In this document: one piece after another, positions 1,591 through 6,430 of the stretch
Numbering within the stretch: the stretch's first letter is position 1
Layout: each line of letters begins with the position of its first letter
Source of the DNA: Verrucomicrobiota bacterium
GTDB taxonomy: Bacteria; Verrucomicrobiota; Verrucomicrobiia; Chthoniobacterales; UBA10450
Assembly: GCA_003218375.1 (NCBI GenBank)
Contig: QHNH01000022.1
Location: 62,001 to 126,000, forward strand
DNA length: 64,000 bases
Direction of reading: 5' to 3'
The notes under the pieces: model-generated
Told to the model about the DNA's origin: nothing
What the model saw: the letters and a program-made list of their open reading frames with translations, nothing else
The model's database searches: none
Translations under genes and position numbers: made by a program

Positions 1591-2406
1591 GTGAGAATGA
1601 TCATCACGCGAACAGGATTGCTGGCAGTCCTGTGGTTGTTGTTGCTGCCGGGGCACACGGTCGCCGCAGCCGGGTCCTGGGAATCGACTCTCACCGCGTC
1701 CTCGCCGCCATCATTCCCGAATCCGCGACCGATGCATGCGAAGTACGGTTTCGGTTGGAGCGGCTTCCCCTGCGCGACGGCCGAGATCCGCTTGAACAAA
1801 GCCGGCAACGAGCGGTTGCAACTCGAAGTCACCGCGCGGACCGCCGGTCTGGTTCGCGCGCTCTGGAAGTTCGACGCGACGCATACGTCGATGGTCAACG
1901 CCGGCTCTCTCCACCCGATTTCCGTCCGGCAGGTCGAAAACGATCGCGGTAAGAAAATCGTGACCGAGCTTTCGTTCGCTTCCGGCGGTGTCGTTTCCAA
2001 CATCACGGAAACGCCGGGGCCGGAAACAAAAATCCGCCGGTTCGATTTCCCGCACCTGTTCGATTTGCAATCGGCTTTGCTTTATCTGCGCAGCCAGTCG
2101 CTTCAAGAGCGCAGCGTCCAGCGGATTGTCGTTTTTTCCGCTACGGATCCTTATCTCGCCACGGTGACCGTGCTTGGCCGGGAGCGCGTCACCATCCCGG
2201 CGGGAACCTACAACGCCATCAAGTTCGATCTTCAACTCAACCGGATCAAAGACGGCCAGCTTCAGCCGCATCGGAAATTTCGCCGGGCCAACGTGTGGCT
2301 CTCCGACGATCCCGACCGGCTCCTCTTGAAAATCGAAGCGCAGGTTTTTATCGGCAGCGTGTTCTGCGAACTGCAGTCGGTCGATTTCGAAACGCCGAAG
2401 CCGTAA
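1591..2406 (+). CDS. Exported DUF3108 domain protein
   Basis: 271 residues with a cleavable signal peptide (hydrophobic residues 8-25, ending HTVAAAG). The mature part matches the DUF3108 pattern: an early YGFGWSGFPCATAEI-like strand, a central FDFPHLFDLQSALLYLRS segment, and a late strand pair with the TIPAGTYNAIKFD and DDPDRLLLKIEAQ motifs. Members are predicted periplasmic beta-rich proteins of unknown role, often near envelope genes. It stands alone between the skp terminator and a REP pair. Confidence 0.72.
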   Translation: MRMIITRTGLLAVLWLLLLPGHTVAAAGSWESTLTASSPPSFPNPRPMHAKYGFGWSGFPCATAEIRLNKAGNERLQLEVTARTAGLVRALWKFDATHTSMVNAGSLHPISVRQVENDRGKKIVTELSFASGGVVSNITETPGPETKIRRFDFPHLFDLQSALLYLRSQSLQERSVQRIVVFSATDPYLATVTVLGRERVTIPAGTYNAIKFDLQLNRIKDGQLQPHRKFRRANVWLSDDPDRLLLKIEAQVFIGSVFCELQSVDFETPKP

Positions 2407-2410
2407 TCTC

Positions 2411-2500
2411 TTCTGTAGCCGTCGCCCTGTGGGCGACGCGGGGAAAAACTTGGTGCATGGGTTTCGCCCCACGCTTCGCACAGCGAAGCGGCTCCAGAAG
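2411..2500. repeat. REP pair (BIME-like), family A copy 1
   Basis: Two facing hairpins. The left one is GTAG followed by a perfect 8-bp stem (CGTCGCCC, loop TGT). The right one is CTTCGCACAGCGAAG leading into the inverted foot, here GGCTCCAG instead of GGCTACAG. The outer ends read CTTCTGTAG. Other family A copies are at 6976-7058, 26418-26500, 30297-30380 and 58593-58678. It sits between convergent genes. Confidence 0.85.
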
Positions 2501-2515
2501 ACGATCGTTGGTCGC

Positions 2516-3259
2516 TCAGCGCGGAATGTAAATCCGATCGGGACCGATTCGTATCCGCGGCGGAAAGAGGCGGCGGTGAAATCGGCGAAAGCCGCTGGTC
2601 CGCTGTTGTTCGGGCAGCAGGCTGAGCGCCGCTAACGTTTCCACATCGAGCCGGCCGCTTGGCGCTAGGCCAAAGCGCGTCTGGTAATTGCGAAGCGCGA
2701 AATTCATCGCCGGTCCGTAAAGGCCGTCGATTTCATCGCGGTAAAATCCCTGGCGCATCAGGATGATTTGGGCGCGGCTGACGATATCTTGTTGCACCTG
2801 CGGCGGCGCGCTCTGGTAAGGGGTGTCCGCCAGGACTCCGGCACTTTCAACGCGGGGCTGGCGCGGCGGCTCAGGCGCTTCCTCCACTTCACTTTGTTCC
2901 TGCGGCGTCGAACGCAGGGCCGGGGTCGTCGTGGGCGCGGGAGTTTCCTCGAGGAATCCGGGAGGCGTTGGCCCCGGTGTCTGGGCCGGACGCTTCGCCG
3001 GTGTCACGGTCGGTTTTGAAGTAAGGCCGAGCGATCGCTGTGTCTCCGCATTCAGCTCGCCCGTGATCTGCAATCCGTTGCGAATCTGATAACGCCGGAT
3101 GGCGGCGGTCGTGTCGGCATCTTTTTTGCCGTTGATCTCGCCATAGTAAAACCCGCCGTCCTTCAGTTTTTGCTGCGCCGATTCCATCGCCGTGTCGGCC
3201 AAAGCTGTGGACCAGACGGCGAAAAAAAGGAGAGCTGTGACGAGAAACTTGCGGTTCAT
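2516..3259 (-). CDS. Secreted protein with two peptidoglycan-binding (PG_binding_1) domains
   Basis: The start at 3259 gives 247 residues with a signal peptide directly at the N-terminus (MNRKFLVTALLFFAVWSTALA). An upstream in-frame ATG at 3301 overlaps the amidase stop and would add 14 residues before it. Two peptidoglycan-binding repeats are visible: residues about 27-75 (LKDGGFYYGEINGKKDADTT, then IRRYQIRNGL) and about 155-205 (MRQGFYRDEIDGLYGPAM, then LRNYQTRFGL). A Pro/Thr-rich linker separates them. It has no catalytic domain of its own. It lies directly downstream of an amidase with touching reading frames, so the two probably act together on the cell wall. Confidence 0.8.
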   Translation of the reverse strand: MNRKFLVTALLFFAVWSTALADTAMESAQQKLKDGGFYYGEINGKKDADTTAAIRRYQIRNGLQITGELNAETQRSLGLTSKPTVTPAKRPAQTPGPTPPGFLEETPAPTTTPALRSTPQEQSEVEEAPEPPRQPRVESAGVLADTPYQSAPPQVQQDIVSRAQIILMRQGFYRDEIDGLYGPAMNFALRNYQTRFGLAPSGRLDVETLAALSLLPEQQRTSGFRRFHRRLFPPRIRIGPDRIYIPR

Positions 3260-3297
3260 CGGGAATCCCATCTTGGACGCCTGGCGGTGGCCGCTAT

Positions 3298-4101
3298 TCA
3301 TCGCGAGGGAAGATCCACCGCGAGCGGCGTGTGCTTGTCCAGCAGGGTGTCGCGATACTGCAGAATTCCTTGCGCGATTCCGGCGGCCATTTGTTCCCGA
3401 TATTCGGCATTCGCGAGTTTGACCGCGTCGTCTTTGTTCGTCAGGAATCCGCCTTCCACCAGGACGGCGGGGTGATGGACATTCGCGATGACAAAAAATT
3501 GCTGTGGCCGGGTGCCGCGATTCGTCGCCTGGGTGTTCGCCACGAGCGACTCCTGGATGAACGTCGCCAGGCTTTGGCTCTCAATGTTGGGCGGCTCGGA
3601 AGAAGTGCGCTGCAAGAAAGGCAGCCACGAGGCGATGCGCTCCGGAAGCGAAACTGGATGCGCCGCATAATAAGTCTCGATTCCGGTCGCCGCGCTCCGG
3701 CCGGCTTCGTCGAAATGAATGCTCACGAAAACAGATTCCGACTGGCTGTTCGCGATCGTGGCCCGGTCCGCAAGCGAAACATAGGTATCATTCGCACGAG
3801 TCATCACGGTGACGAGACCCCGATCCTGCAGATGGCGCTCAATGCGATGGGCCACATCAAGGGTGAGTTCTTTTTCCACCAGGCCCGATTTCGTCGTTCC
3901 GGAATCCTGGCCGCCGTGACCGGGATCGATCACAACGACCGCGAACGGCGCCGTTGGTGGCGGGGGCAATTCGAGCCGCGTTAGAGATCGGGGAGGGGCC
4001 GTGAGTTGCAGCCAAATGAACGACACGGCCATAAGCAAAAGGCCGAGCCAGGCGAGGAGGGATCGCTCGCTTGTGCGTGCGCGCGGATTTCGCCGGAACA
4101 T
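3298..4101 (-). CDS. N-acetylmuramoyl-L-alanine amidase, Amidase_3 family
   Basis: 267 residues with one N-terminal membrane segment (LLAWLGLLLMAVSFIWLQL), a likely anchor or uncleaved signal. The catalytic domain has the zinc-ligand motifs of the AmiC/CwlM family: DPGHGG, the glutamate in GLVEKEL, HFD in VSIHFDE, and the late VEGGFLTN with the catalytic glutamate. It should cleave the amide bond between MurNAc and L-alanine in the periplasm. It starts only 15 bp after the prcA stop and overlaps the next frame by ATGA, so it may be transcribed with the proteasome genes. Confidence 0.9.
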   Translation of the reverse strand: MFRRNPRARTSERSLLAWLGLLLMAVSFIWLQLTAPPRSLTRLELPPPPTAPFAVVVIDPGHGGQDSGTTKSGLVEKELTLDVAHRIERHLQDRGLVTVMTRANDTYVSLADRATIANSQSESVFVSIHFDEAGRSAATGIETYYAAHPVSLPERIASWLPFLQRTSSEPPNIESQSLATFIQESLVANTQATNRGTRPQQFFVIANVHHPAVLVEGGFLTNKDDAVKLANAEYREQMAAGIAQGILQYRDTLLDKHTPLAVDLPSR

Positions 4102-4116
4102 AATTTCATGCGGAGC

Positions 4117-4896
4117 CTAATCGCCGAGGGCCGATCGAATCTCCGGTTCGGTCAAGGCACGATAACGAATCGCCGTTTTATCATCGCGATCAAGGACCGC
4201 CGCTTCGATGCCCGCCGCGCGTAATCGCTCTTTTCGTTCCGTCACGATTTTATCCCGCGCGGGCAATTCTTTCACTCCGGCATCGCCCAGCGCCAGGTGG
4301 CCGACGGTCCACGCATCGAGAGCCAGCTTGAGCGCGCGTTCGAAAGTAGCGCCGGCGGAATGTTCGGCCGCCAGATAGTTCTCCATCAATTCTGTCGATG
4401 GCCGCGTCCCGCTTAGCACGCCAAAATCCTGCCGGGTCTGCGCGAACGTGGCGCTGTTCGTCGCGATGGCGCCGTCGTAATCGAGCCGGAGAAATAAATC
4501 GTTTTCCTGTTTCGCGCCGATCTCGGCAAACAAAAGCCGCGCCAGATACGGTGCGCCGTAGACTTGCTCGAACGCCGTCTTCAAGACCGGGCTCAGTGAA
4601 TAATGCGCGAGCCGCCGCAGCGACACGTCCGCCGCCGAACGCGTGAATCCTTCGGTGCTCGCCAGCTCGATCGCCGTCATCCGCAGCCGCTCGATGTCGC
4701 CTGGGTGCCCGATCGCGCCCATCGCGATGCGATCGTAAATCTCGAAAAGCTTCTGGCGGGTTTTCCCGAGCGTCAGGAACAAAATTCCGTCCCGGTATCC
4801 GAGCACGACGATCGGACTGCCCGTCGCAAGCTGGGTCTCGATGTATTCCGCGCGGTTCGCGATCGCTTCGACCCAACGATATGGCTCTTCGATCAT
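4117..4896 (-). CDS. prcA: 20S proteasome alpha subunit (PrcA-like)
   Basis: 259 residues, close to the 248 of mycobacterial PrcA. The fold markers are the early strand pair SPIVVLGYRDGILFLTLG, then KLFEIYDRIAMGAIGHPGDIERLR, corresponding to the ELYDR..G..G.FNE..NLR segment of PrcA, and a late VAVLD-like strand (IEAAVLDRD). It lacks an N-terminal threonine, as expected for the non-catalytic gate-forming alpha ring. The ATG overlaps the prcB stop (ATGA), which implies translational coupling and equal stoichiometry. The C-terminal tail is charged (EPEIRSALGD). No proteasomal ATPase lies in the window. Confidence 0.9.
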   Translation of the reverse strand: MIEEPYRWVEAIANRAEYIETQLATGSPIVVLGYRDGILFLTLGKTRQKLFEIYDRIAMGAIGHPGDIERLRMTAIELASTEGFTRSAADVSLRRLAHYSLSPVLKTAFEQVYGAPYLARLLFAEIGAKQENDLFLRLDYDGAIATNSATFAQTRQDFGVLSGTRPSTELMENYLAAEHSAGATFERALKLALDAWTVGHLALGDAGVKELPARDKIVTERKERLRAAGIEAAVLDRDDKTAIRYRALTEPEIRSALGD

Positions 4897-5693
4897 GCGA
4901 CGCTCCGTTTGAACACCGCCGCGATCCGTTTCTCGGGCAACGTCGCGATTCCGTCGCGCGAAACGACCTTGATCACCGGGAAGATTTTCGCGTCGCGATC
5001 CACGCCGCCGGTCGCCGTGTCCGATTCGGCGGCGGTGTCGAGCGCGCGCAACGCCACCGTTACCGCTTCGTCCTCGGTCAATTTCACGAGCGGCTTTTTC
5101 CCCCAGTTGTTTTCGTAATAAAGAATTCCGCGCACCGCGGGGGAACCGGAGCCGGTTGCCGCATAATCCGTCACCTCGAATTGCGCGCCCATCGCGTCGT
5201 AAAAATAAAGGCGCGCGGCCGGGTCCGAACCGGAATCGTAAGTGGCGAAAATCGGAACGACGATGCCCGCGCCCTGGAGGACAAATCCGAAATTATCGCG
5301 CAGCAGTTTCGAAAGCGCGCGCACCTTGCCGTCCACGCTCATCTCCTGCAATTGGGTGCGCCGGAAAAACTGGAACGAATGCTCGAGGACGCGCGCCATT
5401 TCCCACGCGGTCGCCGGCACGCCCGCGATCGCCATGATGGAATGGCGGTCGATCTCGAGCACTTTGTCCGCGCGATCGTAAACGACGGTGTTGCCGGCGG
5501 TGGCGCGGCGGTCGCCTGCCACCAGCACGCCGCCCTGGAATTTGAAGGCGAGGATGGTGGTCGCCTGGGTGAGGGGAATATCAGTGGGCAGCGATGCTGT
5601 CGGAGTCATAGGACCGATAGGACCTATGTGACCTATTCGCCGCAGTAACCCCACGAAATCATCGGAGCCAGCTCCGCCGCCGGGCGCGTCCAT
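4893..5693 (-). CDS. prcB: 20S proteasome beta subunit (PrcB-like), Thr protease with propeptide
   Basis: From the ATG at 5693 the product has 266 residues; a GTG one codon earlier at 5696 is an alternative. A propeptide of about 44 residues precedes the mature start TTILAFKFQGG. Counting that first Thr as 1, Asp17 (AGDRR), Lys33 (RADKV) and Gly47 (IAG) fall exactly at the conserved catalytic positions, so the subunit should be active after self-cleavage. Later motifs SGSPAVRGILY and DSATGGVDRD match bacterial PrcB. Its ATG shares a base with the UBact stop (TGATG), and it overlaps prcA downstream. The propeptide contains a 9-bp-period repeat encoding IGH-IGP-IGP. Confidence 0.94.
   Translation of the reverse strand: MDAPGGGAGSDDFVGLLRRIGHIGPIGPMTPTASLPTDIPLTQATTILAFKFQGGVLVAGDRRATAGNTVVYDRADKVLEIDRHSIMAIAGVPATAWEMARVLEHSFQFFRRTQLQEMSVDGKVRALSKLLRDNFGFVLQGAGIVVPIFATYDSGSDPAARLYFYDAMGAQFEVTDYAATGSGSPAVRGILYYENNWGKKPLVKLTEDEAVTVALRALDTAAESDTATGGVDRDAKIFPVIKVVSRDGIATLPEKRIAAVFKRSVA
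5604..5636. repeat. 9-bp minisatellite inside the prcB propeptide
   Basis: On the coding strand the units ATAGGTCAC, ATAGGTCCT, ATCGGTCCT and a decayed ATGACTCC follow one another in frame, encoding IGH IGP IGP M. A related block lies at 27564-27596 in an unrelated gene and a remnant (CTATAGGTCAT) at 40810-40820 between genes, so this looks like a dispersed sequence and not part of the protease fold. Confidence 0.6.
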
Positions 5694-5863
5694 CACTGGC
5701 CAGTGCGTTGGCGGTAACGCTTCGACTGGTTCGGGTCCACCTTGCGCATCTTTTTCAACAGGTCCCGCGTATCCGGCCGCGAGATGTCGGGCGGCCTGGG
5801 ACCATCGCCATCCCCCTGCTTCGGCCCCCAGGGCATGGGCGGCTTTTGCACGCGCTCAGGCAT
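5693..5863 (-). CDS. ubact: UBact-type prokaryotic ubiquitin-like protein (Pup-like tag)
   Basis: 56 residues, start ATG at 5863 (MPERVQKPPMPWG). The N-terminal half is Pro/Gly/Asp-rich and probably disordered. The C-terminal half carries RPDTRDLLKKMRKVDP and ends RYRQRTGQ. This layout is that of UBact, the Pup-like modifier reported from Gram-negative proteasome-bearing bacteria including Verrucomicrobia. The terminal Gly-Gln resembles Pup of mycobacteria, where Gln must be deamidated to Glu before ligation to lysines. The stop overlaps the prcB start (TGATG), so tag and protease are co-expressed. No ligase (PafA) or deamidase (Dop) gene is in the window. The identification is from remembered family features, not a database search. 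Confidence 0.86.
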   Translation of the reverse strand: MPERVQKPPMPWGPKQGDGDGPRPPDISRPDTRDLLKKMRKVDPNQSKRYRQRTGQ

Positions 5864-5956
5864 GCGAAAAAGGTTAGGGATAATTCCTTGAAAGGCAAGC
5901 TGGCCGGGCGCCGCCACGCTTGCCTCACCCTTGCGCAAGTGCCAAAATGCCAGCCC
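5864..5956. promoter_or_regulatory. Divergent intergenic region between ubact and the LysM gene, with an inverted repeat
   Basis: This is the only gap from which the ubact-prcB-prcA unit can be transcribed. It contains an 8-bp inverted repeat, AGGCAAGC (5893-5900) and GCTTGCCT (5918-5925), 17 bp apart. That could be an operator or a hairpin. No convincing -35/-10 pair is visible on either strand. Confidence 0.35.
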
Positions 5957-6430
5957 ATGCCTCGCCTTGCCGTTGCCTTGTTGACTCTGCTCAGCGCCTT
6001 GATGCTTGGCGCGAACGCATCCGCGCAAACCTTCGCCGGCAATGACAAGACCGAAAAAATGCTCGAGGCCTTGAGCAAAAAAATCGACGAGCAGAACGCG
6101 AAGATCGATACCCTCTCGCAGCAGATCCTGAAATTGGAACAACAAGTCTCCAAGTTCCGCCCCGGCATAATGATCGGCGAAACGCCATCCCCATCGCCCG
6201 GCAGCAATGCCACCGCCGAAGCGCCGAAGCCGACCCAGCAATCGGGCAACAGCCATGTCGTCGCGAAAGGCGAGACCCTCACCTCGATCGCGAAGATGCA
6301 CAAAGTCACTGTCGAAGAATTGCAGAAATTCAACCACATCGAGAACGACCGGAAGTTGCAGATCGGCCAGACGATCATGATTCCGCCCTCCGCGAGTTCT
6401 CCGGGCGCTTCAACAACGCCGAACGGATAA
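5957..6430 (+). CDS. Secreted LysM-domain protein with N-terminal coiled coil
   Basis: 157 residues from the ATG at 5957. Longer versions starting upstream run through the ubact gene on the other strand and lack a signal peptide. A signal peptide (MPRLAVALLTLLSALMLGANASAQ) is followed by a heptad-like helix (about 28-65, KKIDEQNAKIDTLSQQILKL), a Pro/Ser-rich linker, and one LysM domain at about 98-142 (HVVAKGETLTSIAKMHKVTV, then LQIGQTIMIP). LysM binds GlcNAc-containing glycans, so a periplasmic peptidoglycan-binding role is likely. The stop overlaps the next start (TAATG). Confidence 0.82.
   Translation: MPRLAVALLTLLSALMLGANASAQTFAGNDKTEKMLEALSKKIDEQNAKIDTLSQQILKLEQQVSKFRPGIMIGETPSPSPGSNATAEAPKPTQQSGNSHVVAKGETLTSIAKMHKVTVEELQKFNHIENDRKLQIGQTIMIPPSASSPGASTTPNG

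Follow-up and report, generated by a model that had tools for sequence, protein, structure and literature searches.

The window analysed here, a stretch of 64,000 nucleotides from a Verrucomicrobiota soil bacterium, carries on its minus strand a small tag gene, the genes for the two subunits of a 20S proteasome and two cell-wall genes (Table 1). An earlier note on this DNA had described a 56-residue tag ending in RTGQ, joined through TGATG and ATGA overlaps to a beta and an alpha subunit. All three open reading frames were confirmed on the minus strand (the tag at 5863-5693), as were both junctions: TGATG joins the stop codon of the tag to the PrcB start, and ATGA spans the end of PrcB and the beginning of PrcA.

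Table 1. Genes of the UBact-proteasome locus and its downstream extension (positions in the window).
Feature	Position	Strand	Description
UBact	5693..5863	-	56-aa ubiquitin-like tag, ends RQRTGQ; NF033388 and PF20513 matches; 111/213 order genomes
PrcB	4893..5693	-	20S beta subunit, 266 aa; 44-residue propeptide before Thr1 (T45); TIGR03690, PF00227
PrcA	4117..4896	-	20S alpha subunit, 259 aa, pocket Lys K49; TIGR03691
N-acetylmuramoyl-L-alanine amidase (Amidase_3)	3298..4101	-	probable fourth operon gene; PF01520 181.8 bits
Peptidoglycan-binding-domain protein	2516..3301	-	probable fifth operon gene; PF01471 91.5 bits

Tag, proteasome subunits and downstream genes

Profile searches matched the tag to NCBIfam NF033388 (77.1 bits, cut-off 35) and to Pfam PF20513 (75.9 bits, cut-off 27.8), and the Pup profile PF05639 gave zero matches in a search of the whole genome, which bears out the UBact identity that the earlier note had proposed. 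When the tag was compared with solved structures there was no match, even at an E-value of 10. Measured against relatives of the same length, dN/dS for the tag was 0.01-0.18 where it could be computed. The NF033388 and PF20513 scores together with the low dN/dS indicate that the UBact feature is not due to chance and, judged by sequence comparison, strong purifying selection acts on the tag, whose predicted conjugation tail is unchanged. All tags in 110 relatives end in RQRTG[Q/E], with RQRTGQ in 84 and RQRTGE in 26, and Q-ending and E-ending tails are intermingled among similar tags. This alternation resembles that of Pup tails, where tags that end in Glu require no deamidation (PMC12288473). 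Its occurrence within one bacterial order makes the need for deamidation testable there. Two UBact matches apiece were found in two genomes, G064 and G186.

PrcB was identified by TIGR03690 (171.9 bits), a PF00227 match and similarity to solved mycobacterial PrcB (6.7e-30), and PrcA by TIGR03691 (95.6 bits) and similarity to solved mycobacterial PrcA (6.2e-15). In the profile search of the source genome both subunits scored below the actinobacterial equivalog cut-offs, and none of the genomes of the order passes the cut-off for the beta subunit. Consistent with the Thr1/Asp17/Lys33 site read earlier from the sequence, the active-site residues are present as T45 (in TTILAF), D61 and K77 when counted from the ATG at 5693, and all three columns are invariant in the 107 of 107 relatives that were aligned. 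The earlier numbering of this threonine as Thr46 is correct only when counting starts at an upstream GTG at 5696; from the ATG at 5693, Thr1 is residue 45. Four genomes (G065, G066, G067 and G068) have two beta-subunit matches apiece.

Downstream of prcA, a gap of about 16 nt leads to the amidase gene, which overlaps the peptidoglycan-binding gene by 4 nt, and all of these genes are co-directional. The operon probably extends beyond the 4117-5863 originally marked out, and prcA, the amidase and the peptidoglycan-binding gene are likely co-transcribed. Simple promoter and terminator scans of positions 2300-6100 gave nothing above chance. The amidase follows prcA in 58 of the 72 relatives with room for it, usually no more than 100 nt away, and the peptidoglycan-binding gene also lies 3' of prcA in several relatives with different outer flanks. 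The link between prcA and a following peptidoglycan-binding gene, whether the amidase is present or not, persists when the flanks change, which is suggestive; a functional tie between the proteasome operon and the cell wall is no more than a lead. We also considered functional linkage from the wider synteny (ABC, BamA, Skp, DUF3108) and rejected it as plain vertical synteny within close relatives.

Partner enzymes at separate loci

The earlier note had found no PafA, Dop or ATPase gene nearby and had proposed that these lie elsewhere or that a different partner is used. None is present in the first 12 kb, and all PF03136 and ARC matches fall outside the window; the sole AAA match inside it scores lower and belongs to an ATPase that is not ARC. 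Elsewhere the genome (3.96 Mb in 52 contigs, 97.8% complete) contains Dop, a PafA-like gene and ARC, so the first of the two proposals stands and a different partner is unneeded. True absence of the ligase and the ATPase was rejected for the source genome on the basis of two PF03136 matches and one ARC match.

The two PafA/Dop paralogues are located at C35:70916-72286 and C25:106197-107504 (PF03136, 548 and 414 bits). Dop is told from PafA by the Dop-loop, the residues beside the catalytic Asp and the alpha-loop (PMC7947786). The C35 paralogue (L001) scored 488.8 bits with TIGR03688, just below the cut-off of 492.3, and aligned over nearly its full length with the solved Dop 4b0r (3.9e-120); the Dop-loop region and the catalytic-Asp motif are both present. 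By these sequence features the C35 paralogue is Dop-like, in agreement with the deamidase that the earlier note took the terminal Gln to imply. The C25 paralogue (L002) scored 312 bits with the PafA profile versus 301 with the Dop profile, neither score reaching its cut-off, and among solved structures its best match is a Dop. Its sequence (L002, 1453-2925) is intermediate: the Dop-loop is absent, and some of the residues near the catalytic Asp are Dop-like. We read it as PafA because the Dop-loop is missing, a few residues are PafA-like, it occupies the corresponding cluster position in relatives and its PafA score is slightly higher. Its designation as a putative PafA ligase is the least secure of all our assignments.

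The ATPase, at C35:74739-76250, contains OB and AAA domains (PF17758, PF16450, PF00004) and matches solved Mpa at 1.5e-101. We label it ARC/Mpa-like because its score of 451 bits is below the pup_AAA equivalog cut-off of 504.75, which none of the genomes of the order passes. A DUF885 gene (L006, 6794-8668) lies between ARC and Dop in the source genome; several genomes of the same genus have a similar gap of several kb, and ARC and Dop are adjoining in many other genera.

To place this arrangement among relatives (Chthoniobacterales/Spartobacteria of Verrucomicrobiota) we used 213 genomes of the order. UBact was found above cut-off in 111 genomes, PafA/Dop in 121 and the bacterial beta subunit in 113, and 109 of the 123 genomes with any one of the three have them all. 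ARC was detected at E <= 1e-100 in 104 genomes of the order, and mismatched sets of components come mostly from incomplete assemblies. Within the same class, another family with genomes of 2.2-2.5 Mb, several of them single-contig, carries all six genes in one cluster, ARC-Dop-UBact-PrcB-PrcA-PafA. In many Chthoniobacterales ARC and Dop adjoin, UBact-PrcB-PrcA are kept together and PafA is usually elsewhere; in one member of the order (G019) PafA lies about 1.6 kb upstream of UBact, past LysM and GYF genes. The six genes of the source genome are distributed over three loci: the window, the C35 locus with Dop and ARC, and the C25 locus with the PafA-like gene. Given the one-cluster relatives and the presence of the partners elsewhere in the genome, their absence from the window is best read as a split cluster and not as a missing pathway, and the single cluster is presumably the older state. 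Chthoniobacterales keep the components at separate loci, which is why a single window makes the tag look like an orphan. A separate observation concerns a 96%-complete relative (G006), which encodes PrcB, PrcA and a UBact whose N-terminal half contains an insertion (L148, G006:C66), and where PafA, Dop and ARC were not found in the genome.

The ATPase tail and the alpha-ring pocket

Mycobacterial Mpa docks through a C-terminal GQYL, whose penultimate Tyr contacts Arg26 or Glu119 of the alpha subunit, and the C-terminal carboxylate of Mpa can meet alpha Lys52 (PMC9599533). We compared these features, the mycobacterial side being taken from PMC9599533, with those of relatives sampled from one phylum. 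The 41 complete ARC tails that were read end in VI (32), VV (7) or II (2), and a penultimate Tyr or GQYL motif is found in 0 of the 41; the stretch before the terminal dipeptide is variable in both sequence and length. ARC loci with such V/I-V/I ends include that of the source genome (L006, 8686-10407) and those of relatives L118-L147 and L151-L160. In an alignment of 106 relatives to solved PrcA, the column at Arg26 is occupied by P, S, T, A, G, H or Q and never by Arg, and all 106 have Lys in the Lys52 column. The loss of Tyr from the ARC tail, together with the loss of Arg and retention of Lys in PrcA, suggests a docking motif that lacks Tyr. The UBact ATPase may dock by a C-terminal [V/I][V/I] with the alpha Arg lost and the carboxylate-binding Lys retained, as a variant of the HbYX type, a proposal for which we consider the chances about even. 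A tail without Tyr facing an alpha pocket that has also changed leads to a simple prediction, open to testing, on the docking of proteasome activators.

Proposed pathway and relation to known systems

Overall, we interpret the locus as part of a UBact (Pup-like) tagging and proteasome system whose six genes are here split over three loci, with a probability of roughly 0.93. The sequences show gene identity, conservation of the catalytic and pocket residues, joint occurrence of the components, a gene order that is split and purifying selection; every biochemical step that follows is inferred. Dop (C35) would convert the terminal Gln of the tag into Glu by deamidation, and PafA (C25) would phosphorylate that Glu and join it to a substrate lysine by an isopeptide bond. 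The ARC/Mpa-like ATPase (C35) would bind the tag, unfold the substrate and thread it into the PrcA/PrcB 20S core, probably docking on the alpha ring via its Tyr-less [V/I][V/I] tail such that the carboxylate meets pocket K49. PrcB is predicted to cleave itself before T45 and then to degrade the substrate, and Dop could also take the tag off.

It is very unlikely, in our view, that tagging is not the main use of these genes and that the 20S core is instead fed by another activator, with UBact a relic or in another role. Such an arrangement would fit G006, where UBact, PrcB and PrcA are present and no PafA, Dop or ARC was detected, and it would fit an ARC without the GQYL docking tail. The source genome, however, has Dop, the PafA-like gene and ARC, these genes and the tag occur together throughout the order, and the strong purifying selection on the tag and its unchanged conjugation tail speak against such an arrangement. 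Recent transfer of an actinobacterial-type Pup system in place of UBact would account for an enzyme set and tail chemistry that are the same as in Pup systems, but is extremely unlikely because the Pup profile matches nothing in the genome and the UBact profiles match strongly, the subunits and ARC fall below actinobacterial equivalog cut-offs (with no genome of the order passing the beta or ARC cut-off), and synteny of the operon and its flanking genes extends across relatives.

The tagging and proteasome system that we favour is already known (2008, 2017), and the source is a real, ordinary member of a known family. Curated profiles for UBact systems exist, yet these systems appear hardly studied in the literature searched. 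Pup-like proteins that end in G[EQ] were reported in Methylacidiphilum by Iyer et al. (2008), who also included Chthoniobacter flavus among the proteins of their PafA alignment (PMC2588565). These Verrucomicrobia proteins come from the same phylum as our source and are regarded in the 2008 paper as orthologues of Pup. The name UBact was introduced in 2017 for the tag of several Gram-negative bacteria (Lehmann et al. 2017, BBRC 483:946, as cited in PMC12751074). As far as the system is described there, the genes reported here share its tag family (PF20513/NF033388), proteasome subunits, homologues of the conjugation enzymes and Gram-negative hosts, and differ in being spread over three loci in the source genome. 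With the Pup-proteasome system of Actinobacteria (Pup, Dop, PafA, Mpa/ARC, PrcBA) they have in common the enzyme set, the terminal Gln/Glu chemistry and the order tag-prcB-prcA. In contrast to that system, the tag is unmatched by the Pup profile, ARC is without GQYL, the Arg26 position of PrcA is not Arg, and neither PrcA nor PrcB reaches its actinobacterial equivalog cut-off.
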